Of a stretch of DNA of 64,000 nt, positions 24,375 to 64,000 are shown piece after piece. Location: NCBI GenBank assembly GCA_030141605.1, contig JAQGDQ010000203.1, positions 315,001 to 379,000 on the forward strand. Direction: 5' to 3'. The stretch is from Tubiluchus corallicola. Its lineage: Eukaryota; Priapulida; Priapulimorpha; Priapulimorphida; Tubiluchidae. The notes beneath the pieces were generated by a model, which did no database searches, was not told the DNA's origin, and saw only the letters and a program-made list of their open reading frames with translations. The first letter of the stretch is position 1. Each line of letters begins with the position of its first letter. Made by a program: the position numbers and the translations under genes.

Positions 24375-24882
24375 GTACGTCGATCAAAAAATATCATACT
24401 AATTAACATTGCAGGCCTACAGGCTTCTTCTTTAAGCTTAATTTTTTTCCAATAAACATTGATACTGCTGCTACTGCAGTGATGTTTTTCCACGATGGGT
24501 CGAAAGTTTATACACAATAATTACAAACCCCGCGGTTTATTGACAGTAATCTGTTGTCCAACGAGTGATTGTTAACCGTCTTTATCGTTCTGCATGGAAG
24601 ATGCTCTCATGTCCAGCCGTTTCGAGAGGCGGTTGAATAACTTGAATACATGTGACAAAGAAATTTCTGCGAATTTATGCTTAATGATGTAAAGTGATTT
24701 TATTACTGACACTTCTATATTAACTTGTGGTGTACCTTATAGGCGTTCTGAGCTTGTATGAAATTTTAGTTATCTGACCGATCCACTTATGATTGTTTTT
24801 GGCTCATAATGGCAACACGAGAAAAGTTTTCACAGTTTATATGACCTGCTATAATTAAGTAAACGCACAACAGATGTAACAT

Positions 24883-43159: not shown

Positions 43160-44101
43160 TTTATTCACTTGCTAGTACTATGCTGAAATTGATGGAGCAA
43201 AATTAGCCAGGATTTGTACTGAAATATGGTCGAGTAAAAGTACAGCGGCTAGCCGTCTCTGGCGTTGATTAATGCTCTTTCTCGCCTAGATCTCAATGGT
43301 CTTTGTTATTTCAGGTTCACACTGTAAATATTGGATGATCAGTCGAGTGGACAAGGGAAAATCCTTGACCGATCAATACGTGATTGCCAAACCTAATTGA
43401 TATCGATTACGCTAATCGATGCTGTGACCGTAGTTGTGTTTGCATCTGCCGATGGCTGTTCCCACTCAAGAAGACCTTCAGAAAAAGCGGAGCCCTTTTA
43501 GTGGGAAGCCCTTTTATTTATAATGAAGCGAGAAGAGCTGTACACGTTCTTGAAGAACCGCATTTCTTCGGGAAAAACCGAAACGTGATACAATGTAATG
43601 GTGCAAAAATAGAAACCTCTATAAACTCACAAGAAAACACGAGCCAACGCTGCGGCAGCTTAATTAGTTTTATTGGTGCTAACTCACCTCATTGTGTTGG
43701 CGGTAGCGTGATGGATATGAGAGTACGCATGAACATTTTCACGCACCCACCACGGACATGTCGGTAGTGATTAACATCAGCTGTGCGGACGTAAGTGGTT
43801 TCAGTCCTTCGATGTTGACGTAATTAGCAATAACAGCTTCGTGCTAGATTAGATATTAGTGAGCTTAATCGAGGAAGGTCTACTAACACATGAGACTTGC
43901 TGCAGCCACTAATATACTAAAGACTTATTAGTTTATTATAGTGGCACTTGCGTAGTGAGAACGTAAATTTTTGTGTCTTTCTTTATGTTGCATGACATAG
44001 ACAAGTCTGTGGTCACATTTGAAGGTAACAAGACTTGGCCCATTGGTTGACAAAATGCATGATAGTAGTGTAGTGCTAATCAACTACACACATTGATTCT
44101 A
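43160..44101. other. Kv1 upstream region
   Basis: No exon of the channel was recognised upstream of its ATG. A plus-strand ORF at 43384-43767 has no family resemblance; it could overlap a 5'UTR. No clear TATA box is evident. Confidence 0.4.
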
Positions 44102-45598
44102 ATGGCATTTAATTTTATTCTTGGTAAGCGCCTGGAATCTGTAGCTGAAGGATGCGTTGAACCACGGTACGAAAAAGAAAAACGAGAAAAGAGCATGGCA
44201 GCCGAGAAAAGGAGAGCAGCACAGGAGTGCCTTTTATTGGAGGAGGATGACAGCAGGGCAGATCCATCAAAATCCTCGCAGCAGTCAGACACAAACAGAC
44301 AGAGCAGCGATCTGAACAAGAATGGCGTCATCTGTTCAGATCATCCTAACACACGCATAATGATCAACATCAGTGGTTTAAGGTTCGAGACCCGGGTAAA
44401 GACGTTACGTCGGTACCCTGATTCTTTGTTGGGTAATCCAGCCAAACGTTGCAAGTACTTCGACACTTTGAGGAACGAGTATTATTTTGACCGACATCGA
44501 CCTAGCTTTGATGCAATTCTCCATTATTACCAGAGTAAAGGGCGACTGCAGCGACCTGCCAATGTTCCTATGGACGTATTCATCAGTGAAATCAAATTTT
44601 TCCAATTAGGCGAGAAGGTGCTTGAGCAATACTTGGAAGGAGAAGGCATCGTGAAGGAGAAACCAAGAGCTTTACCAAAAAACCCCACTTTGAGGACAAT
44701 CTGGAAATTGTTTGAGCACCCAGATGCCGGATGGCCATCACGTATTGTGGCAGTTATATCAATATCAGTCATAGTGTTATCTGTGATCACATTCTGTGTG
44801 GAAACGTTACCAGAATTTTCTCAAAATAAAACTGTTTTGTTTCAAAATGCCACAAGAGATGAGATTGGGGCCTTTCTTTTTAGCGATCCTTTCTTTGTCA
44901 TTGAGACATTGTGTGTGTGCTGGTTTACATTTGAGTTAATCATGCGTTTTGTGTCGTCGCCAAATAAATTTAAGTTCTGGAAAAGTTTTATGAATATTAT
45001 AGATTTGACTGCCATCGTGCCATACTTCATAGGTCTATCAGTGACATACATCAACAAGTCTGGAGATATGGGATCGATGAGCTTAGCTGTACTCAGGGTT
45101 CTTCGTCTAGTCAGGGTGTTTAGAATATTTAAACTGTCACGACATTACAAAGGTTTGCAAGTCATTGGTCAAACTTTACGAGCAAGTATTCCAGAATTAG
45201 GATTACTTACTTTCTTTCTCATCATTGGCATGATTCTTTTTGCTAGTGCTGTCTACTTTGCCGAACTCGACAAAAGTGACTCTCACTTCACTAGTATTCC
45301 AGCCGCATTTTGGTGGGTGGTTGTCACCATGACCACAGTTGGATATGGTGACATGTTTCCACAAACAGGTTGGGGAAAGTTGGTGGGATCTCTCTGTGTG
45401 ATATCCGGTGTTCTGACAATAGCACTTCCTGTGCCTATCATTGTGTCAAATTTTGATTATTATTACCACCGTCATTGTGACACTGAAGCTTATACGACAG
45501 AAGAGGAGGATCCTCAAGCTGATGGCGATATAGGTACCAGAATAGATTTGGAAGCAGCTGGTAGCAAAAATGATGATTACGATGAAACACATTGCTGA
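44102..45598 (+). CDS. Shaker (Kv1): Shaker-type voltage-gated potassium channel (Kv1), intronless, complete
   Basis: A 498-residue plasma-membrane K+ channel subunit; tetramers give delayed-rectifier or A-type currents. T1 tetramerisation domain ~84-182 ([26 protein letters not shown]), S1 ~213-233, S2 ~265-285, S3 ~295-313, S4 327-349 with regularly spaced charges ([18 protein letters not shown]), S5 ~366-386, pore with TVGYGD at 412-417, S6 with PVP at 443-445. ATG 44102 is the first Met in frame (an upstream TTG is unlikely). The N-terminus is hydrophobic (MAFNFILG) then basic, like an N-type inactivation ball. Oddities: F419 where Shaker has T449, a proline in the S4-S5 linker (ASIPELG), and a short 45-residue C-tail ending ETHC, without the usual ETDV-type PDZ ligand. 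NKT242 and NAT249 are likely glycosylation sites in the S1-S2 loop. The whole CDS lies in a single exon. Confidence 0.97.
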
Positions 45599-55949: not shown

Positions 55950-56816
55950 CATTAAGGCCTTTTTATAAATAATCTCTGGATTGTGGCACGTCAAGCTTCG
56001 CTAGCGGTTTCTTTACTTGCGTAAACTACATGAAAGTGCGCACATCATTGTCTATTGTTGAGCAGATGAAACCACAAAATACTATAATTTGTTAAAATCA
56101 AACCTGTTGTAGTTTGCCATTTTTTATGAAAGATGAAGTGTAGCCAACCTAAAAGGAGAGAAAGTAGGTAAATTAGTAAAATTATGGTATTGTGTGCTTT
56201 CATTCGCATACATTACCCATCAACTATAGTGAATGATGAAAGCAATTTACCTGTAGCATAAGACTTCACCGCCACACTCAACAAAAATTAGAACAACGTC
56301 CATACTAACTGAACACAACAGAGTAGCGCCACCTATCAATACTGGCCTTCATTCACTTTGTTAAACGAATGCGATTCGCAATGTCTACACAATTATATTA
56401 CTAGAATTTAATAACCAAGATTTAATAGACAAAATAAGCAACAGAGGAAATGAATTAAAGCAACAAGGTTTCTCTCAAAAGCAAGTTTTGAACAACGTGT
56501 ACGTTGATGACACATCACATCATGCCAGTGATTCCACGTCAGCAGCGCCGCGTCACGTTTTTGCAGCCATGTGTAAATTTTTACAGACATGTACGAATCT
56601 TGATAAGGCAGTTGTAAAGCTGCATGAGTGCATTTCTATTTACGTACTTACGCACCTCATATCTATTTATACATTATTATATGAGGTGCATCTAGTTACG
56701 TAGGCCTATTCTATTAGTCAAAATAATGCTTAGATGCGCAGTCAAGATTCGTGTTTTCTAAGCTGAAAGAGTTAGACGGAATTTGCCAACTTTATAAGGC
56801 CTTGCTAATTTTTGTA
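55950..56816. other. Upstream region of the BTB gene
   Basis: No clear exon. A plus-strand ORF at 56488-56703 has no family resemblance. ACTTCACCGCCACACTC near 56266 resembles TTCACCGCC motifs near 9610 and 19757 and may be a repeat fragment. Confidence 0.35.
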
Positions 56817-58154
56817 ATGGCCTGTTCATCGTCCAAAGACTACTCCATAGATATGGCGGCAATATGGAAAAGAGCAAACTGGTCTGAAAGATTGTCCAGC
56901 CTGTTTGATAGTGGTACGTTGCAAGACGTTGAGTTCATCGTAGGTGAAAAACGCATCACAATAAGAGCAAATAAACTCGTCTTGTCGTTGGTAAGTCGAG
57001 TATTTTTTACAATGTTTTATGGATCACTACCAGAGGTCACTAACACACCTATTGAAGTTCCAGATATCAGAGTGAAAGTGTTCAACATTTTTCTCGAATT
57101 TGTTTATACCGACAGGATTCCCATAACTGATTGTAGTGTGTTATGTCATGATGGGGTTCCTTCAGCATTTGAACTAATTTATGTGGCCAAGAAATATGAC
57201 GTGAGAAGGTTGGAAAGCATTGCGGCTAAGTACATTATGTCACATCTGACAGTTGATAATGTGTGTGATGTCATTAGAGAAAACTATTTGTACGAAAACC
57301 GGGACGTGCACGAACAGTGCTATCAACTAATTGATTTGTACCCGCTGGATGTGTTTACGTCTAAGAGTTTCACAAAGCTAGCCTACACAGAATTGCTGGA
57401 AATAGTTAAGAAAATAAACAACAAAATTTCTGAATTATCAATTTATGAATCAGTTGTTGGATGGGCGCGGGCTCAATGCGCCCGGAAAACACTGGCGACT
57501 TCTACTGGTAACATTCGCAACGAAATGAGCGACGTACTGTACGAAATTCGTTTTCCCTTGATGGATCTGCAAGAGTTTGCGGATGGACCCGCTCAGTCCG
57601 GCATATTAACCGATAGTGAAGTAGCTAACATTTTCTTAAACAGGCATGGATCATTAAACAAAGTACAGCTGATTTTTCCCGGAGAAAATAGGTGCGATTT
57701 TATGCTAAACTCACAAGACTTTAGGGGTAGGCCTACGCTTGTCTTTAGAGTGCCAGTACAGCACATTGATGGACTTCAACGCGGAAAAGGAAAGTGGTTT
57801 TCCTCTAAACCATGTTATCCTATTGCGGGAGTGTCCTGGGCGCTAGAACTTAGGAAGTGTGGCCCACTTACCTGTAATTCTGAGACTGAAAAAGGCCAAA
57901 GTTGTTGTTTTCATTTCCGGTTTGAACCCCATTGTGCAGCAGAAGAACGAAGAACTAGAACATTGTTCAGGGAATCCAGGATAGTGCTGGTGAATCTTGA
58001 TCCACAAAAAAGCATCGAAAAAAAGCTGGCTGAGGACAAAACACCAGCTATTTGGTGGGAAGACAACTTCATTTCGTCACGTGACTTGCTGACATTTGAA
58101 AGTGGCTTTATTATTGCTGACGTGATTACAGTTTACTTTATACCATGTGTTTAA
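56817..58154 (+). CDS. BTB-BACK protein of BTBD1/2/3/6 type with MATH-like C-terminus, intronless
   Basis: 445 residues from the first ATG in frame. BTB ~33-140 (GTLQDVEFIVG ... ANKLVLSLVSRVFFTMFYGS ... FLEFVYTDRI), then BACK ~145-275. The BACK region includes FPLMDLQEFADGPAQSGILT at 246-265, a signature of the BTBD1/2/3/6 group. Those family members are substrate adaptors for Cullin-3 ubiquitin ligases and normally end in a PHR domain. Here residues ~305-442 instead look MATH-like: FRVPVQHIDGL, GVSWALELRKCG, FHFRFEP, NFISSRDLLTFESGF and IIADVITVYF follow the pattern of a MATH beta-sandwich ending in F(I/V)..xxL....G(F/Y)(L/I)..D. AATAAA lies at 58245-58250, ~90 nt after the stop. Substrate unknown; adaptor role is inferred. 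Confidence 0.88.
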   Translation: MACSSSKDYSIDMAAIWKRANWSERLSSLFDSGTLQDVEFIVGEKRITIRANKLVLSLVSRVFFTMFYGSLPEVTNTPIEVPDIRVKVFNIFLEFVYTDRIPITDCSVLCHDGVPSAFELIYVAKKYDVRRLESIAAKYIMSHLTVDNVCDVIRENYLYENRDVHEQCYQLIDLYPLDVFTSKSFTKLAYTELLEIVKKINNKISELSIYESVVGWARAQCARKTLATSTGNIRNEMSDVLYEIRFPLMDLQEFADGPAQSGILTDSEVANIFLNRHGSLNKVQLIFPGENRCDFMLNSQDFRGRPTLVFRVPVQHIDGLQRGKGKWFSSKPCYPIAGVSWALELRKCGPLTCNSETEKGQSCCFHFRFEPHCAAEERRTRTLFRESRIVLVNLDPQKSIEKKLAEDKTPAIWWEDNFISSRDLLTFESGFIIADVITVYFIPCV

Positions 58155-58259: not shown

Positions 58260-59374
58260 CATGGCAGCCATTCTAGTGCATGAGACAAAATTTTCATGTT
58301 GCGTATTTGTGCAAAATCGTAATGGCTAAAATCTGAAAATCTGAATGTAATGTTTTATTTTTATAATGCAACTCAGTTGTGCTGTTTTATAGCCTATTAA
58401 CTGTTACCGCTGCTGCTGCTGTTGTTGTTACTAAGACTGATAGAATTTTTTTATAACGACGAATAAAAACGAACAGTCTTAAATTTTATTATTCTTATTA
58501 ATACTTAGTCATTCTTTATCTAATTTAAAATTTCAACTTGCTGATTTATGTAGAAATGTAGCGAGATTAGATTAATTAAATTATGCTCTCAAAACAGAAA
58601 GTCCAATGGAAGTGGAAGTGTTTTATTAACTAACACTGATTGATTATCTCTGTAAAGTTTTTATCGGTGATTATCAATGTATTTTAATGGCAAATAAAGA
58701 TTATTATATATACATATATAAGCAGAATAAAGTTGGAAACAGGTGTTTTGCAGCACATTGATTCATTGAATGAATATCTGCACCCTGACATAAAATACTG
58801 ACTTTCAACACAGCCAATGTAATATCAGTTAGTATTCAATGACTTAAAGTTGATTTTTCTTGACCTGTCCGTTAAGAAAAGCAAGCATATGACGGGTGCG
58901 GAAATTCATTCAACATATTACAAAAAAAGGGCCGATTCCACGTTTATTCAACATCAAGTTCCATCGGTCTTTCAAAGTTAACCTAATATCGCGAAATTTC
59001 AACATAATTCAAAACGTGAATTGAAGCGATAACTAAATTTTGACTACCCTGTAGTTCCTTATAATAAAATTTACTGCACAGTTTCATATCCAAAAGCATC
59101 TGTGTGATTACGTATCATTTAGATCAAGCAGGCAGCAGGTGTGTTTGTATAAGATTTTGTTTGAGATATCTTTGTTTACCATTGATGCAATAGAGTTGAT
59201 GTATTTCAGTGTGTAAATAAATTTGATTGTCATCAAACTACATTGTGAAAAATCGATTTGAGCTGCAAATAAGTAGTTTTTGCAAATGAAAAAGCTACAC
59301 AAATACAACAATTTCCCACTACGAAACTCATGTTGTAGTGTTCAGACGTGGAAACATCAGACAATGTTCCTAAA
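58260..59374. other. Gene-free interval before receptor exons
   Basis: AT-rich; no exon or TATA box can be asserted. Presumably contains the promoter and 5'UTR of the first receptor exon. Confidence 0.35.
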
Positions 59375-60559
59375 ATGATACCAAGGAAAGTTCATGTCAG
59401 AGATATTGATGCAGCATTACACACTGGTTTAAAAAATCAGCAATCAGTTGATAAAGTCAAGAGAAATGCAAAAAGGTGGTTGCATCCGAAGGTATACACC
59501 ATCCAGGAAATAGAAAATAAAAGTACAGTGAAACCTGGCGATAACAACTACTATCGTGATTGTTCAGTAACAAGCAATGAGTTGTATTACAAATTGCACC
59601 CACTTTTGAATTCTGCAAGGATTTTCGGTCTCTTTCACCTTCCGAAACATCGGCCCGAAAATGCTTCTCTGCTTGCCTCTTTTTCTGGAGCCACCTGGTG
59701 GTCGCTCGTGACACTGCTGTGTGTTACAGCAATATGTGCAAAGTCATTGAAATCTGACACTGGCAAAGCTGACCTGACGACAGCCACCGGCATTGCACAG
59801 TCGTTTGTCTTGTTCTTGGAGGTAATTCTGGTTTTGGTTAGATGGTTCACATTTGTTGCCGGATTCAAAATGGCGAATGTTTTCTCAGAATTTGAGAAAC
59901 AACTTCCTCGTTATATCAATCACAGTAAAGTTACTAACATCAAATCACTTACACAAACTCTCAGAGAAAATCGGCTTTCATGGGGATTAACCTTGATGGG
60001 CTGGGCGGTGATTATAAGTACTTTTTTGTATGCAACAATAAACAAGGTTTTCGAGAACCTGAATTCAACTATAACTCTACGTTTGGTATTTATAAATACG
60101 GTTTATGTTATCTATGACAAGTTTCAGTTGGCAACTGTCATTTTTGCTGCATACATCGTCGTCTCGTTGTGCAAAATATTAAATTCTAAATTTAGTTTTC
60201 AACACGATGGCCTACGATTGGATACTGACGAAAAGGTGAATAATTTCTTGGACAAGCAAAGAGGATTCATTCTTCTAATTGAAGTTGTGGATGAGACAAT
60301 ATCACCAATGCTTTTGATGATTTGTCTCGGAAGTTTCATGGTGATCGTTGTTCAAATTTATCTTTACAGCCATAATTATCACTCCGGTATTCCACCAGGT
60401 TATTTACAGGAATTTGTCCACGTGTTTTCTACTCTACAAAGTTTCTCATTCCTACTGATTCTTATCAGCTGTACAGCTCTGCACGAAAAAGTCATGCAAG
60501 TTGAAAGAATTTTACATTCTATAAAACGAAGTCAATTGGGAGAAATGGCCAGATATGAG
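59375..60559 (+). CDS. Gustatory-receptor-like chemoreceptor, large exon 1 (TM1-TM6; TM7 missing)
   Basis: 395 codons from the first ATG (59375; the GTG at 59348 is not a likely start). The exon encodes a hydrophilic cytoplasmic N-terminus (1-105) with HPLLNSARIFGLFHLP at 75-90, an arthropod-type Gr N-terminal feature. Six predicted helices follow: ~106-124, 137-163, 201-221, 236-266, 311-332 and 347-368. The segment ISCTALHEKVMQVERILHSI then fits the loop between TM6 and TM7. The reading continues only four codons past GEMARYE to a stop, and GAG|GTAAAT at 60559/60560 is a good splice donor in phase 0. TM7 with the family's TYxxxxxQF motif must therefore be in a later exon. Gr proteins are inverted-topology ligand-gated cation channels for tastants or other chemicals. 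Family assignment rests on layout and scattered motifs. Confidence 0.78.
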
Positions 60560-60569
60560 GTAAATACAT

Positions 60570-61692
60570 GAAATAATTCTCAGACCTGGCACTCTTCATA
60601 TGCTATGTAGATTTTTTTTATTTCAGGAAATATAAAGAATAAAAGCAAGCATGTAGTGATGGAAAGTTAAACAGCTTCTAAGAAAATAAAACAAATTAGA
60701 ACTGTTTGGAAATTTGCAGCAAGAGTTAGTTGTACAAGTGTACAAGCCACTAGAGCTCTAACAATAAGAAAACAAAGGTAACACCTTGCCAAAACACACT
60801 CGATGGCTTGAAACACTTTATACGTGAGTGAAGTGCAACAGATAAAAGAAAAATATATATTTTACATTAACTGTTGTTCAAAACAATTCATGTGCAGGTA
60901 TTATTGCCTAAAAGGATGATGTTCTTCTATTCTTAGCCCTTAGCAGTTCCAGTGTTGGAAATTTTTTTCAAGTTTCTTTCCAGGTCTTTGCATCCGAAAA
61001 CTGATTACACGTTCAAACTAATAATTAGTTGTCTTTAATTAAGTTACTGCACACTTGATAATTAATAATAAAACCATTGCCTCCATACTCAACCAAGATC
61101 AGTCTCTGAATCATGTGAGATGCAATTTAAAAACTTTAAGATAGAGTTAATTGCTTACAACAGATGTAGAGACGATTGCTGCTTTAATCTGGTACTTTAA
61201 GTTAAAAAAGTAAGCGTCTTATATCCAACGCTTATCACATCTTGTTGATTCCTAATATTCCAATGCCACCTTCCTGGTGGGTCAATAACTAGATATAGTT
61301 GCTGTGCTGCAAATATTAGCAGTGTGACCTGCTAATTTTATTCTATCTGTGAATTATTCCATCCATTACATCACTGAGGCACTTATTGCAGTATGCTATT
61401 ATTTAACAATAAACGCCAACAATAAATGTGTGCAAGGCTGTTATGCATTTGTCTAGCAAATGGTAAATAGATTGAAATTAAAAGCATTTGTGTTTACACT
61501 ACTTTGTTCTGCACAACATTAGCAAGCAACAGAAAAACCACCTTATTTATAGCAAAAACAATTCAGGACTTTTAGATCACGTTCAGAATTATTGCAATCG
61601 AGAAGTACTCCTCGTATGCTAGTTCAAGAAAAGGAAATAAATATTACTCAAAGTTAAACAAGACAGGTGTTTTCGATTTTTCTACAAATGAT
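60570..61692. other. Interval between the two receptor exons
   Basis: Acceptor-like sites (for example after 60629, 60899 and 60984) lead only to short frames with early stops. No sequence encoding TM7 or a TYxxxxxQF-like end was found in any phase-0 continuation. Confidence 0.5.
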
Positions 61693-62805
61693 ATGAAGAA
61701 ATCTAAAGACGTTTCAAAGCAAGTTGTGAGTACCATAAGTTGCATAGCTTGGAAATCATGTGATGACGATCCTTCAATGCCCATCAACCGTGAAATGGAA
61801 GAAAAGAATTTCACAGAAATTTTGATGATGAATGATATGTATAAAAGCTTAAAACCTTTGCTGCAATCTGCCAAAGTTTTTGGATTATTTCACGTACCAA
61901 ATCAATACCAGGAGAGTTTTCGCATGCTGTCATATTTTTCTAGAAGCACCACTTGGTCGTTCATTGTTTTTCTTGGTGTAGTGTCAATTTGCATAAAGTC
62001 TTTGGTTGCAGATGTACAACATGCTAACCTTACTACAGCCAGTGGTATTGCACAATCATTCGTCTTACTGTTGGAAGTAATTCTCACACTTGTGAGATTT
62101 TTTGCATTCATTGTTGGGTTCAAGATGAGAAAGGTGTTCATCGAGTTTGACAAGATGGCATGCAAGAGGAAATCATATTTTGCTAAATCTGATTCAACTA
62201 CAACCAAAATTTCTGTAACTTTTATATCCTATTTCCTGGCAGTAATTGGATGGGTTACAATGATTGTGACATTTGTTTATGCAGCAATTCATAAAGTAAA
62301 AGTTCATATCGGCAACGACAATAATACTATGGGCAACATAATTATATCAGCAGCATATCTCATTTACGACAAATTTCAACTCGCAGTGGTAATATTTCCT
62401 GCCTATATCACTACTTGTCTGTGTATCACCTTGATACAAAAATTTAAAAATGCAAAACTTGGTGAAACCACAGACCAGAATCTTCACGTCTTCTTAGAAA
62501 AGCAAACCAAATTCATTCATTTAATCAAAGTTATTGATGAGACAATGTCACCAATGCTTTTGATGATTTGTTTCGGAAGCTTCATAGTGGTCGTTGTTCA
62601 AATTTATCTTTACAGCCATAATTATCACTGTGACATTCCACCAGGTTATCTACAGGAATTTGTCCACGTGTTTTCTACTCTGCAAAGTTTTTCATTCCTA
62701 CTGATTCTTATCAGCTGCACAGCACTTCACGAAAAAGTCATGCAAGCTGAAAAAATTTTACATTCTATAAAGCGAAGTCAATTGGGAGAAATGGCCAGAT
62801 ATGAG
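61693..62805 (+). CDS. Gustatory-receptor-like chemoreceptor, large exon 2 (TM1-TM6; TM7 missing)
   Basis: 371 codons from ATG 61693, paralogous to 59375-60559. It has a shorter N-terminus, then KPLLQSAKVFGLFHVP, TTWSFIVFLGVVSICIKSL, ASGIAQSFVLLLEVILTLVR, YLIYDKFQLAVVIFPAYI and, from DETMSPMLLM onward, a 90-residue end that differs from exon 1 at only eight residues. It ends GEMARYE with donor GAG|GTAATT at 62805/62806, the same position and phase 0 as exon 1. Unspliced reading runs ten codons further to a stop. A candidate tiny phase-0 exon (63260-63295, PVQFITQVGVIQ) lies downstream but is unproven. Likely a chemosensory membrane channel subunit in sensory neurons, by family. Confidence 0.78.
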
Positions 62806-64000
62806 GTAATTACATTAAATAGTATCTTATGCTTATAAGGGACAGTTGTAGATGACGGAATGCTCAAAAAATCAAATCTCAAGTTCTGTTTTTGCTTGCT
62901 AATGGCATTCTAACAAAATATTATAAAGCACCTTTGCAAATACAGTTGCAATTATAAGACCATAATAAAATAATTAACTGATCAAATGAATTAATAATTT
63001 ACGTGTGAATGTTAAAATGTTACAAACTACAACAAAATTGCAAATGCAATGTTGCAAAGGCTATAAAGGCTACAAAGGTAGTTTTACAGTCTATTGTTCT
63101 GCTGGATTCTGCATATAAACAGATTGAATCACTTGAGCATGTATGTATAGGCTAACAAATTTAAATGTAAGCTTCATCCAAGGCTTGAAGGCCTGAAAGG
63201 TGGCTGCACATGACAGTATATCAGTTTATCCCCAACAATTATAGTTCTTTGTATTTTAGCCAGTGCAGTTCATTACACAAGTTGGGGTAATCCAGGTATG
63301 AAACTGTCTACACCATTGAGACTTTGCCAGTGGTGTAAATCGTGCCATCAGCTGCAAGTGAAAACAGAGGCAATAAGCACATTTACCCGTGACATCACGT
63401 AGTGTCACCTTTAAACGCACAAGATTCTTGTACAGATTTTGTAACTTAAAATTAACATTTATTATCACGTAAAGTAAAATTTTGCATTTTAGCACACTAT
63501 ATTTCTTTTATAAATTACTCCTAGAGTCACGTCTGAGGACTTCACGTATTTGAAATTGAAAAATTACAAAATCGTGTTTATCTTATTTGCAGTTAACTGT
63601 GCAAGGTCTGTGAAGACCTTTTTATTGCTAATTTGAAAGAATATGCTTTCGCTCATTGAATCATAAATGTTGACAATGCGTTTGTTTGCCGCTCCTCATA
63701 TTTTTGCTATGGACGTCTCCGAATGCCTAATGTTTGCTTATAAACTCTGCTTTTAACAGAGGCTTGTTATCTCACTAGTTTTTACCAAAAATTGTTTCCT
63801 GTCAACTACAGTTTTACTTGCTTCAAGAAGGTCGACCTATCACTACCAAGTTATTAATAAAAAAAATTTCTCGCCCTGTTTTTAAACCTGTTTTTTACTG
63901 TGGGAATGCCTCAGCATATTACCATAATTCAACGCTGTCAGTTCTTTAGAACTTCTGTCTTTCAGATTTTATGACATTTCTGACTTAAAAAATGACGAAG
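62806..64000. other. Downstream of receptor exon 2
   Basis: No clear TM7 exon was found. There is one splice-flanked 36-nt candidate (63260-63295) and one open run after an acceptor at ~63763 that does not look Gr-like. The shared 3' exons, if any, probably lie beyond the window. Confidence 0.4.

Follow-up and report, generated by a model that had tools for sequence, protein, structure and literature searches.

Alternative large exons with putative shared two-exon tails at a gustatory-receptor-family locus

The window, a 64,000-nt stretch of DNA, corresponds to positions 572865–636864 of contig C1796, which extends 17.6 kb past the window and ends at position 654428 (window-equivalent 81564). 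The contig carries five large exons that resemble those of gustatory receptors (Gr). All five lie in one orientation, all are open (367–395 codons), and all end in RYE directly before a GT donor in phase 0 (Table 1). Exons 1 and 2 are located in the window, and exons 3, 4, and 5 are located to the right of it, where the first-pass annotation had predicted that more such exons would be found. Tail 1, made up of the small exons A and B, is located between exons 3 and 4 and starts 3.7 kb past the window edge.

Table 1 Features of the receptor cluster. A slash marks the exon–intron boundary.
Feature	Window position or window-equivalent	C1796 position	Strand	Basis
Large exon 1	59375..60559		+	ATG to GAG/GTAAAT, 395 codons, six predicted helices, no TM7
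Exon 1 variable part (TM1–TM4)	59375..60259		+	Codon comparison, hydropathy
Exon 1 homogenised part (TM5–TM6)	60260..60559		+	Resembles exon 2 including synonymous sites
Exon 1 predicted phase-0 splice donor (GAG/GTAAAT)	60560..60565		+	Sequence; use inferred
Large exon 2	61693..62805		+	ATG to GAG/GTAATT, 371 codons, six predicted helices, no TM7
Exon 2 variable part (TM1–TM4)	61693..62505		+	Codon comparison, hydropathy
Exon 2 homogenised part (TM5–TM6)	62506..62805		+	Resembles exon 1 including synonymous sites
Exon 2 predicted phase-0 splice donor (GAG/GTAATT)	62806..62811		+	Sequence; use inferred
Large exon 3	65105–66241	637969–639105	+	Six helices, RYE/GT
Tail 1 exon A	67730–67819	640594–640683	+	Score matrix, splice dinucleotides
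Tail 1 exon B	68448–68609	641312–641473	+	Score matrix, AG before, ends at stop
Large exon 4	70365–71465	643229–644329	+	Six helices, RYE/GT
Large exon 5	73484–74611	646348–647475	+	Six helices, RYE/GT

Exons 1 and 2 both end in GEMARYE in phase 0, followed by GTAAAT and GTAATT, respectively, which confirms the earlier description of two large exons with the same ARYE end, phase, and GT donor at 60559 and 62805. The start given there for exon 2 (61692) is one base early if it was meant as the ATG; the end is correct. The donor of exon 3 (GTATAA) is by eye weaker than the others. Hydropathy predicts six helices in each of the five large exons and one in the tail, so that exon 2 joined to the tail has seven; the absence of TM7 from exons 1 and 2, already recognised in the first pass, is borne out. 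When searched alone, exon 2 matches the Pfam family 7tm_7 (PF08395) with 35.1 bits (1.2e-8, profile positions 1–311 of 370) and exon 5 matches it with 29.4 bits; exons 1, 3, and 4 alone give no match to this family. A phmmer search of exon 1 against solved structures also gives no match. A profile of 13 large exons matches one chain named OR28 (8v3c, E 1.7e-5) and, at E 0.062–6.8, four weaker targets, with dopamine and apelin receptors among them. An AlphaFold model of exon 2 built from a two-row alignment, the second row being exon 1, was discarded as unusable (mean pLDDT 38.9).

With exon 2 as the query, a search of the genome (343.5 Mb in 2344 contigs; E up to 10) returns 27 matches, 25 of which are the five cluster exons in each of five contigs (C1796, C2016, C2136, C2140, and C2209). 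The other two matches are on C1732 (2.1e-6 over 101 residues) and C2239 (0.9). The 3′ ends of C2016, C2136, C2140, and C2209 (6.5–7.4 kb compared) are 100% identical to that of C1796 and stop at the same base, which looks like a sign of assembly redundancy.

Upstream of exon 1, the window contains a 475-residue frame with BTB and BACK domains (56727–58151, + strand). A segment of 110 bases before exon 1 (~58611–58720) is 94.5% identical, on the opposite strand, to C1796:650803–650910 after exon 5. Further upstream, an unbroken 509-residue frame (44069–45598, + strand) presumably encodes a potassium channel of the Kv1/Shaker type. Positions 45338–45451 within this frame match the RNA-editing signal of potassium channels in Rfam (RF00485; 87.3 bits against a gathering threshold of 51), a match that may reflect coding conservation alone.

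Exon A of tail 1 comprises 30 residues in phase 0, reads VLIHLQQLSSRSIGLTIWKFYVINRNFAFI, and is preceded by AG and followed by GTGAGT. Exon B, also preceded by AG, reads IVSGICTFFIVIVQF... to the stop codon and carries the seventh helix together with the motif TFFIVIVQF. In tail 1 and in a second tail of the same subfamily on contig C1513 (tail 2), this motif is a variant of TYhhhhhQF with Y replaced by F; six other aligned B exons have TY. The junctions between large exon and exon A and between exons A and B are both in phase 0, and phase-0 junctions are described as a rule of the Gr family in the excerpt of PMC9998090. The first-pass annotation had predicted a phase-0 TM7 exon with a TYxxxxxQF-like end to the right of position 64000. 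The phase-0 TM7 tail is present there, as two exons instead of one and with the motif in the form TFFIVIVQF. A single-exon candidate considered at first, C1796:641117–641470, was rejected; its frame runs from the intron into exon B, and exon A was identified further upstream.

The gaps between the large exons were scanned with score matrices trained on ten A exons and eight B exons of the same genome. Nine of the ten A exons have AG directly before them; the one at locus L008 does not, and its start is uncertain. Known exons left out in turn score 29.1–83.4 (A) and 35.3–58.1 (B), and the best chance scores in 58 kb of the window read on both strands (116 kb) are 5.7 and 15.4, respectively. For tail 1, the scores are 75.7 for exon A and 47.0 for exon B, falling to 57.6 and 35.3, respectively, when the exon itself is excluded from training. 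No tail is detected on the + strand in gap 1–2 (1133 bases; A −11.8, B −1.4), gap 2–3 (2299 bases; A −0.9, B 0.6), gap 4–5 (2018 bases; A −4.8, B 0.9), or the stretch after exon 5 (A −2.1, B 4.3). On the − strand, gap 1–2 scores −8.0 (A) and 4.4 (B), and the best scores over all four regions are −6.9 and 5.8, again without a tail. The scanned sequence contains no N. In a control from whose matrices both tails of the subfamily were left out, exon A of tail 1 is still clear of the background at 32.2 and exon B, at 12.5, falls within it. This control indicates that the absence of A exons is well tested and that the scan could overlook a lone B exon with strong divergence. With this limit on B exons, the earlier statement that no TM7 exon lies between 60560 and 61692 holds on both strands. 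In addition, every gap between large exons contains AATAAA motifs, and transcripts may end early there.

Tail 2, the only other tail of the subfamily of exons 1–5 that was found, lies on the − strand of C1513, with exon A at 24860–24771 and exon B at 24598–24428. The A exons of the two tails are 80% identical in protein. Over 52 codons, dN between the tails is 0.11 and dS is saturated, indicating that they separated long ago. Neither the Pfam search nor the exon 2 query finds a large exon on C1513 (32479 bases). The last 1000 bases of C1513 match C1796:653443–654423 at 97.5% on the same strand, and this shared end lies inside sequence that reads by eye like a LINE. If C1513 were turned round and set after C1796, the two repeat copies would stand head to head, an inverted arrangement at which an assembly could break. 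It is fairly likely that C1513 follows C1796 beyond the assembly break, which would place tail 2 after exons 4 and 5. At C1513:24829–25384 (L027 1791–2346), a minisatellite with a 51-base unit in about 11 copies (67% matches) runs up to exon A of tail 2, and its units look by eye like copies of the splice acceptor and first codons of that exon.

When large exons and tails are joined in silico, all five products exceed the 7tm_7 cut-off of 26.6 bits, scoring 39.5–60.6 bits, and four of the five span nearly the whole profile. With tail 1, exon 1 scores 60.6 bits and exon 2 scores 53.5 bits, both over positions 1–369 of 370; exon 3 scores 39.5 bits in two stretches, the better of which covers 218–369. 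With tail 2, exons 4 and 5 score 54.9 and 54.7 bits, both over positions 1–368. The gain on joining would speak for frame and fit rather than for splicing, as a good tail may raise the score of any such exon.

The large exons are unevenly conserved along their length. The 300-base stretches 60245–60544 of exon 1 and 62491–62790 of exon 2 are 90% identical. Across codons 296–395 of exon 1, exons 1 and 2 agree at 27 of 30 fourfold sites and in 73 of 83 codons for the same residue, compared with 15/42 and 46/110, respectively, in the upstream part. Exons 4 and 5 show the same pattern, sharing 23/27 fourfold sites and 58/67 same-residue codons in the last 80 codons and 20/41 and 65/112 upstream. 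Fisher tests of tract against upstream part give p = 2e-11 (same-residue codons) and 3e-6 (fourfold sites) for exons 1–2, and 5e-5 and 0.004 for exons 4–5; these values are descriptive, since the tract boundaries were chosen after the profile had been viewed. Over the last 110 codons, dN/dS by a single method (NG86) is 0.089/0.327 for exons 1–2 and 0.086/0.405 for exons 4–5, and the low dN relative to dS makes these exon ends look constrained. Upstream dS, by the same method, is saturated for exons 1–2 and 1.69 for exons 4–5. Past the donor, the likeness fades within about 20 bases (15/20 then 5/20 in one pair, 13/20 then 3/20 in the other, ungapped). By hydropathy, the homogenised part contains TM5 and TM6. 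Protein constraint alone would not lower dS and conversion would, so the pattern suggests that TM5–TM6 has been homogenised by gene conversion in the pairs 1–2 and 4–5. Exon 3 shows no such homogenisation, an observation that argues against a general rule that exons using the same tail are all kept alike.

Other Gr loci of the same genome provide a comparison. Gr genes on C2218, C1387, and C2060 have the order large exon, exon A, exon B in phase 0, a 30-residue exon A, and an exon B with a TYhhhhhQF-like motif; all three parts were read at three loci (L002, L005, and L006), and the remainder is taken from the exon map. These genes differ from the cluster of exons 1–5 in that each of their large exons has its own tail. 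No tail was found in the flanks (~1.5 kb) of loci L001, L003, L004, and L007, and L008 has an A-like stretch without a preceding AG and no B exon. An A exon separates neighbouring large exons in all eight pairs on C2218 (four pairs), C1387 (three), and C339 (one), compared with one of four pairs in the cluster; for tailless pairs (3/4 versus 0/8) the Fisher p is 0.018, weakening to 0.095 when the tailless pairs of C821 (one) and C2009 (one) are counted in. This count leaves out C2235 (two pairs, no A match on the contig) and the four contigs that repeat the cluster. The listing of large exons behind it is a lower bound, given that exons 1 and 3 of the cluster escaped the Pfam search, and the eight of eight may overlook tailless exons. 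On C821 (247077–250813, − strand), two large Gr exons have no tail in their fully covered gap, and an A exon lies downstream (245373–245483, − strand); this arrangement makes C821 a possible second shared-tail locus. On C2009, the fully covered gap between two large exons is also without a tail, the first donor is unclear, and the one A match, further along the contig, is weak (E 0.56, one stop inside).

Judged from the genomic sequence, the cluster is probably (roughly 0.8) a locus of the Gr family (7tm_7) in which alternative large 5′ exons would be spliced in phase 0 to a common two-exon tail, exons 1–3 to tail 1 and exons 4–5 to the second tail on C1513. The position of tail 1 between exons 3 and 4 means that it is usable in cis by exons 1–3 only, and that exons 4 and 5 need another tail. 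The first-pass annotation had proposed one common tail for the large exons. Its proposal stands for exons 1–3, which lie upstream of tail 1 and most likely share it; it does not extend to exons 4 and 5, and a single tail for all five was rejected because tail 1 precedes these two. Tail 2 probably belongs to exons 4 and 5. Each large exon would encode TM1–TM6 of a channel subunit with its own start codon and would be transcribed from its own start or promoter and spliced to the next downstream tail, with later large exons skipped as intron. Exon A would contribute the stretch before TM7, and exon B would contribute the pore helix TM7, which carries the motif TFFIVIVQF. In the solved structure of the BmGr9 channel, the pore is lined by the seventh helix, S7b (PMC11100771, in excerpt). 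By analogy with this homologue, the use of another large exon would change the pocket and leave the pore as it is: TM1–TM4 would set the choice of ligand, and TM5–TM7 would stay constant.

Three other explanations may be weighed against shared tails. Exon 3 is nearest to tail 1 and could be its only user, with exons 1 and 2, and perhaps 4, being duplicated bodies without their former tails, already dead or in decay; tandem duplication can copy a large exon alone, and the AATAAA motifs between the large exons fit this explanation. However, the reading frame is open and the GT donor in phase in every one of the five exons, dN in the last 110 codons is only 0.27 (exons 1–2) and 0.21 (exons 4–5) of dS, and exons 1 and 2 are old, as their saturated upstream synonymous sites indicate, yet free of stops. 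We therefore regard decay of the tailless exons as unlikely. Alternatively, read-through of the donor could yield six-helix proteins, for example channel-dead subunits, since an in-frame stop follows each of the five donors within 1–20 codons (3 for exon 1 and 10 for exon 2). Such a product would have no need of a GT at the same residue in five of five exons, and it would lack the helix that lines the BmGr9 pore in the excerpt cited above, which leaves this alternative with hardly any probability.

It is also conceivable that every exon has a tail of its own, either missing from the assembly or so diverged that the matrices do not recognise it. The assembly is odd here, with the region present in five contigs whose compared ends are identical, and a very diverged exon B could escape its matrix. 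Nevertheless, the gaps are short and free of N, exon A is detected even with the subfamily-free matrix (32.2 versus a background of 5.7), and tails 1 and 2 are still 80% identical in exon A despite saturated synonymous sites. Private tails thus appear very unlikely.

Beyond shared tails as such, the receptor may be modular at two levels, with a variable TM1–TM4, a TM5–TM6 kept alike among neighbours by conversion that stops near the donor, and one shared TM7 tail. We put this forward tentatively and consider it doubtful at present. If true, conversion would ensure that the pore-facing part of each alternative exon continues to fit the shared tail, and, if the host is not an arthropod, this splicing plan would also be seen outside arthropods. 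GR-like proteins are reported from several animal phyla, not chordates, in the available part of PMC7746228; among the open-licence literature searched, no title reports a shared-tail Gr locus outside arthropods. A search of the assembly for COX1, as a guide to the host, gives no match. The locus would illustrate how a single pore exon can serve several channel receptors within one genome. It would also be a clear case in which the alternative-exon part next to the shared pore is kept alike and the presumed ligand-facing part has diverged. The layout also matters for annotation, since gene prediction programs may take exons 1, 2, 4, and 5 for truncated genes.

The shared-tail layout is already known from insect loci of the Gr39a type, and the likeness to insect Gr loci drawn in the first pass is apt: exons 1–3 are followed by tail 1, with no private tail detected in gaps 1–2 and 2–3. 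In Drosophila Gr39a, four large exons are spliced to three small shared exons; the paper also mentions conversion for certain copies (PMC2204066, in excerpt). As in the present cluster, Gr39a, and also Gr23a and Gr28b, combine alternative large 5′ exons bearing a GT donor with shared small 3′ exons, the first AG acceptor opens the shared block, and exons have been duplicated (excerpts of PMC2204066 and PMC3011837). In contrast to Gr39a, the cluster has two shared small exons instead of three, a tail lies inside the cluster and divides it in two, and, in two exon pairs, the likeness does not extend beyond TM5–TM6. Beetle loci (TcasGr214, AglaGr99, LdecGr48, and DponGr38a-d) have unique N-terminal exons and shared C-terminal exon(s), with up to 30 variants, and DponGr38a-d joins a unique first exon to two shared exons, as is proposed here (PMC6720082, in excerpt).
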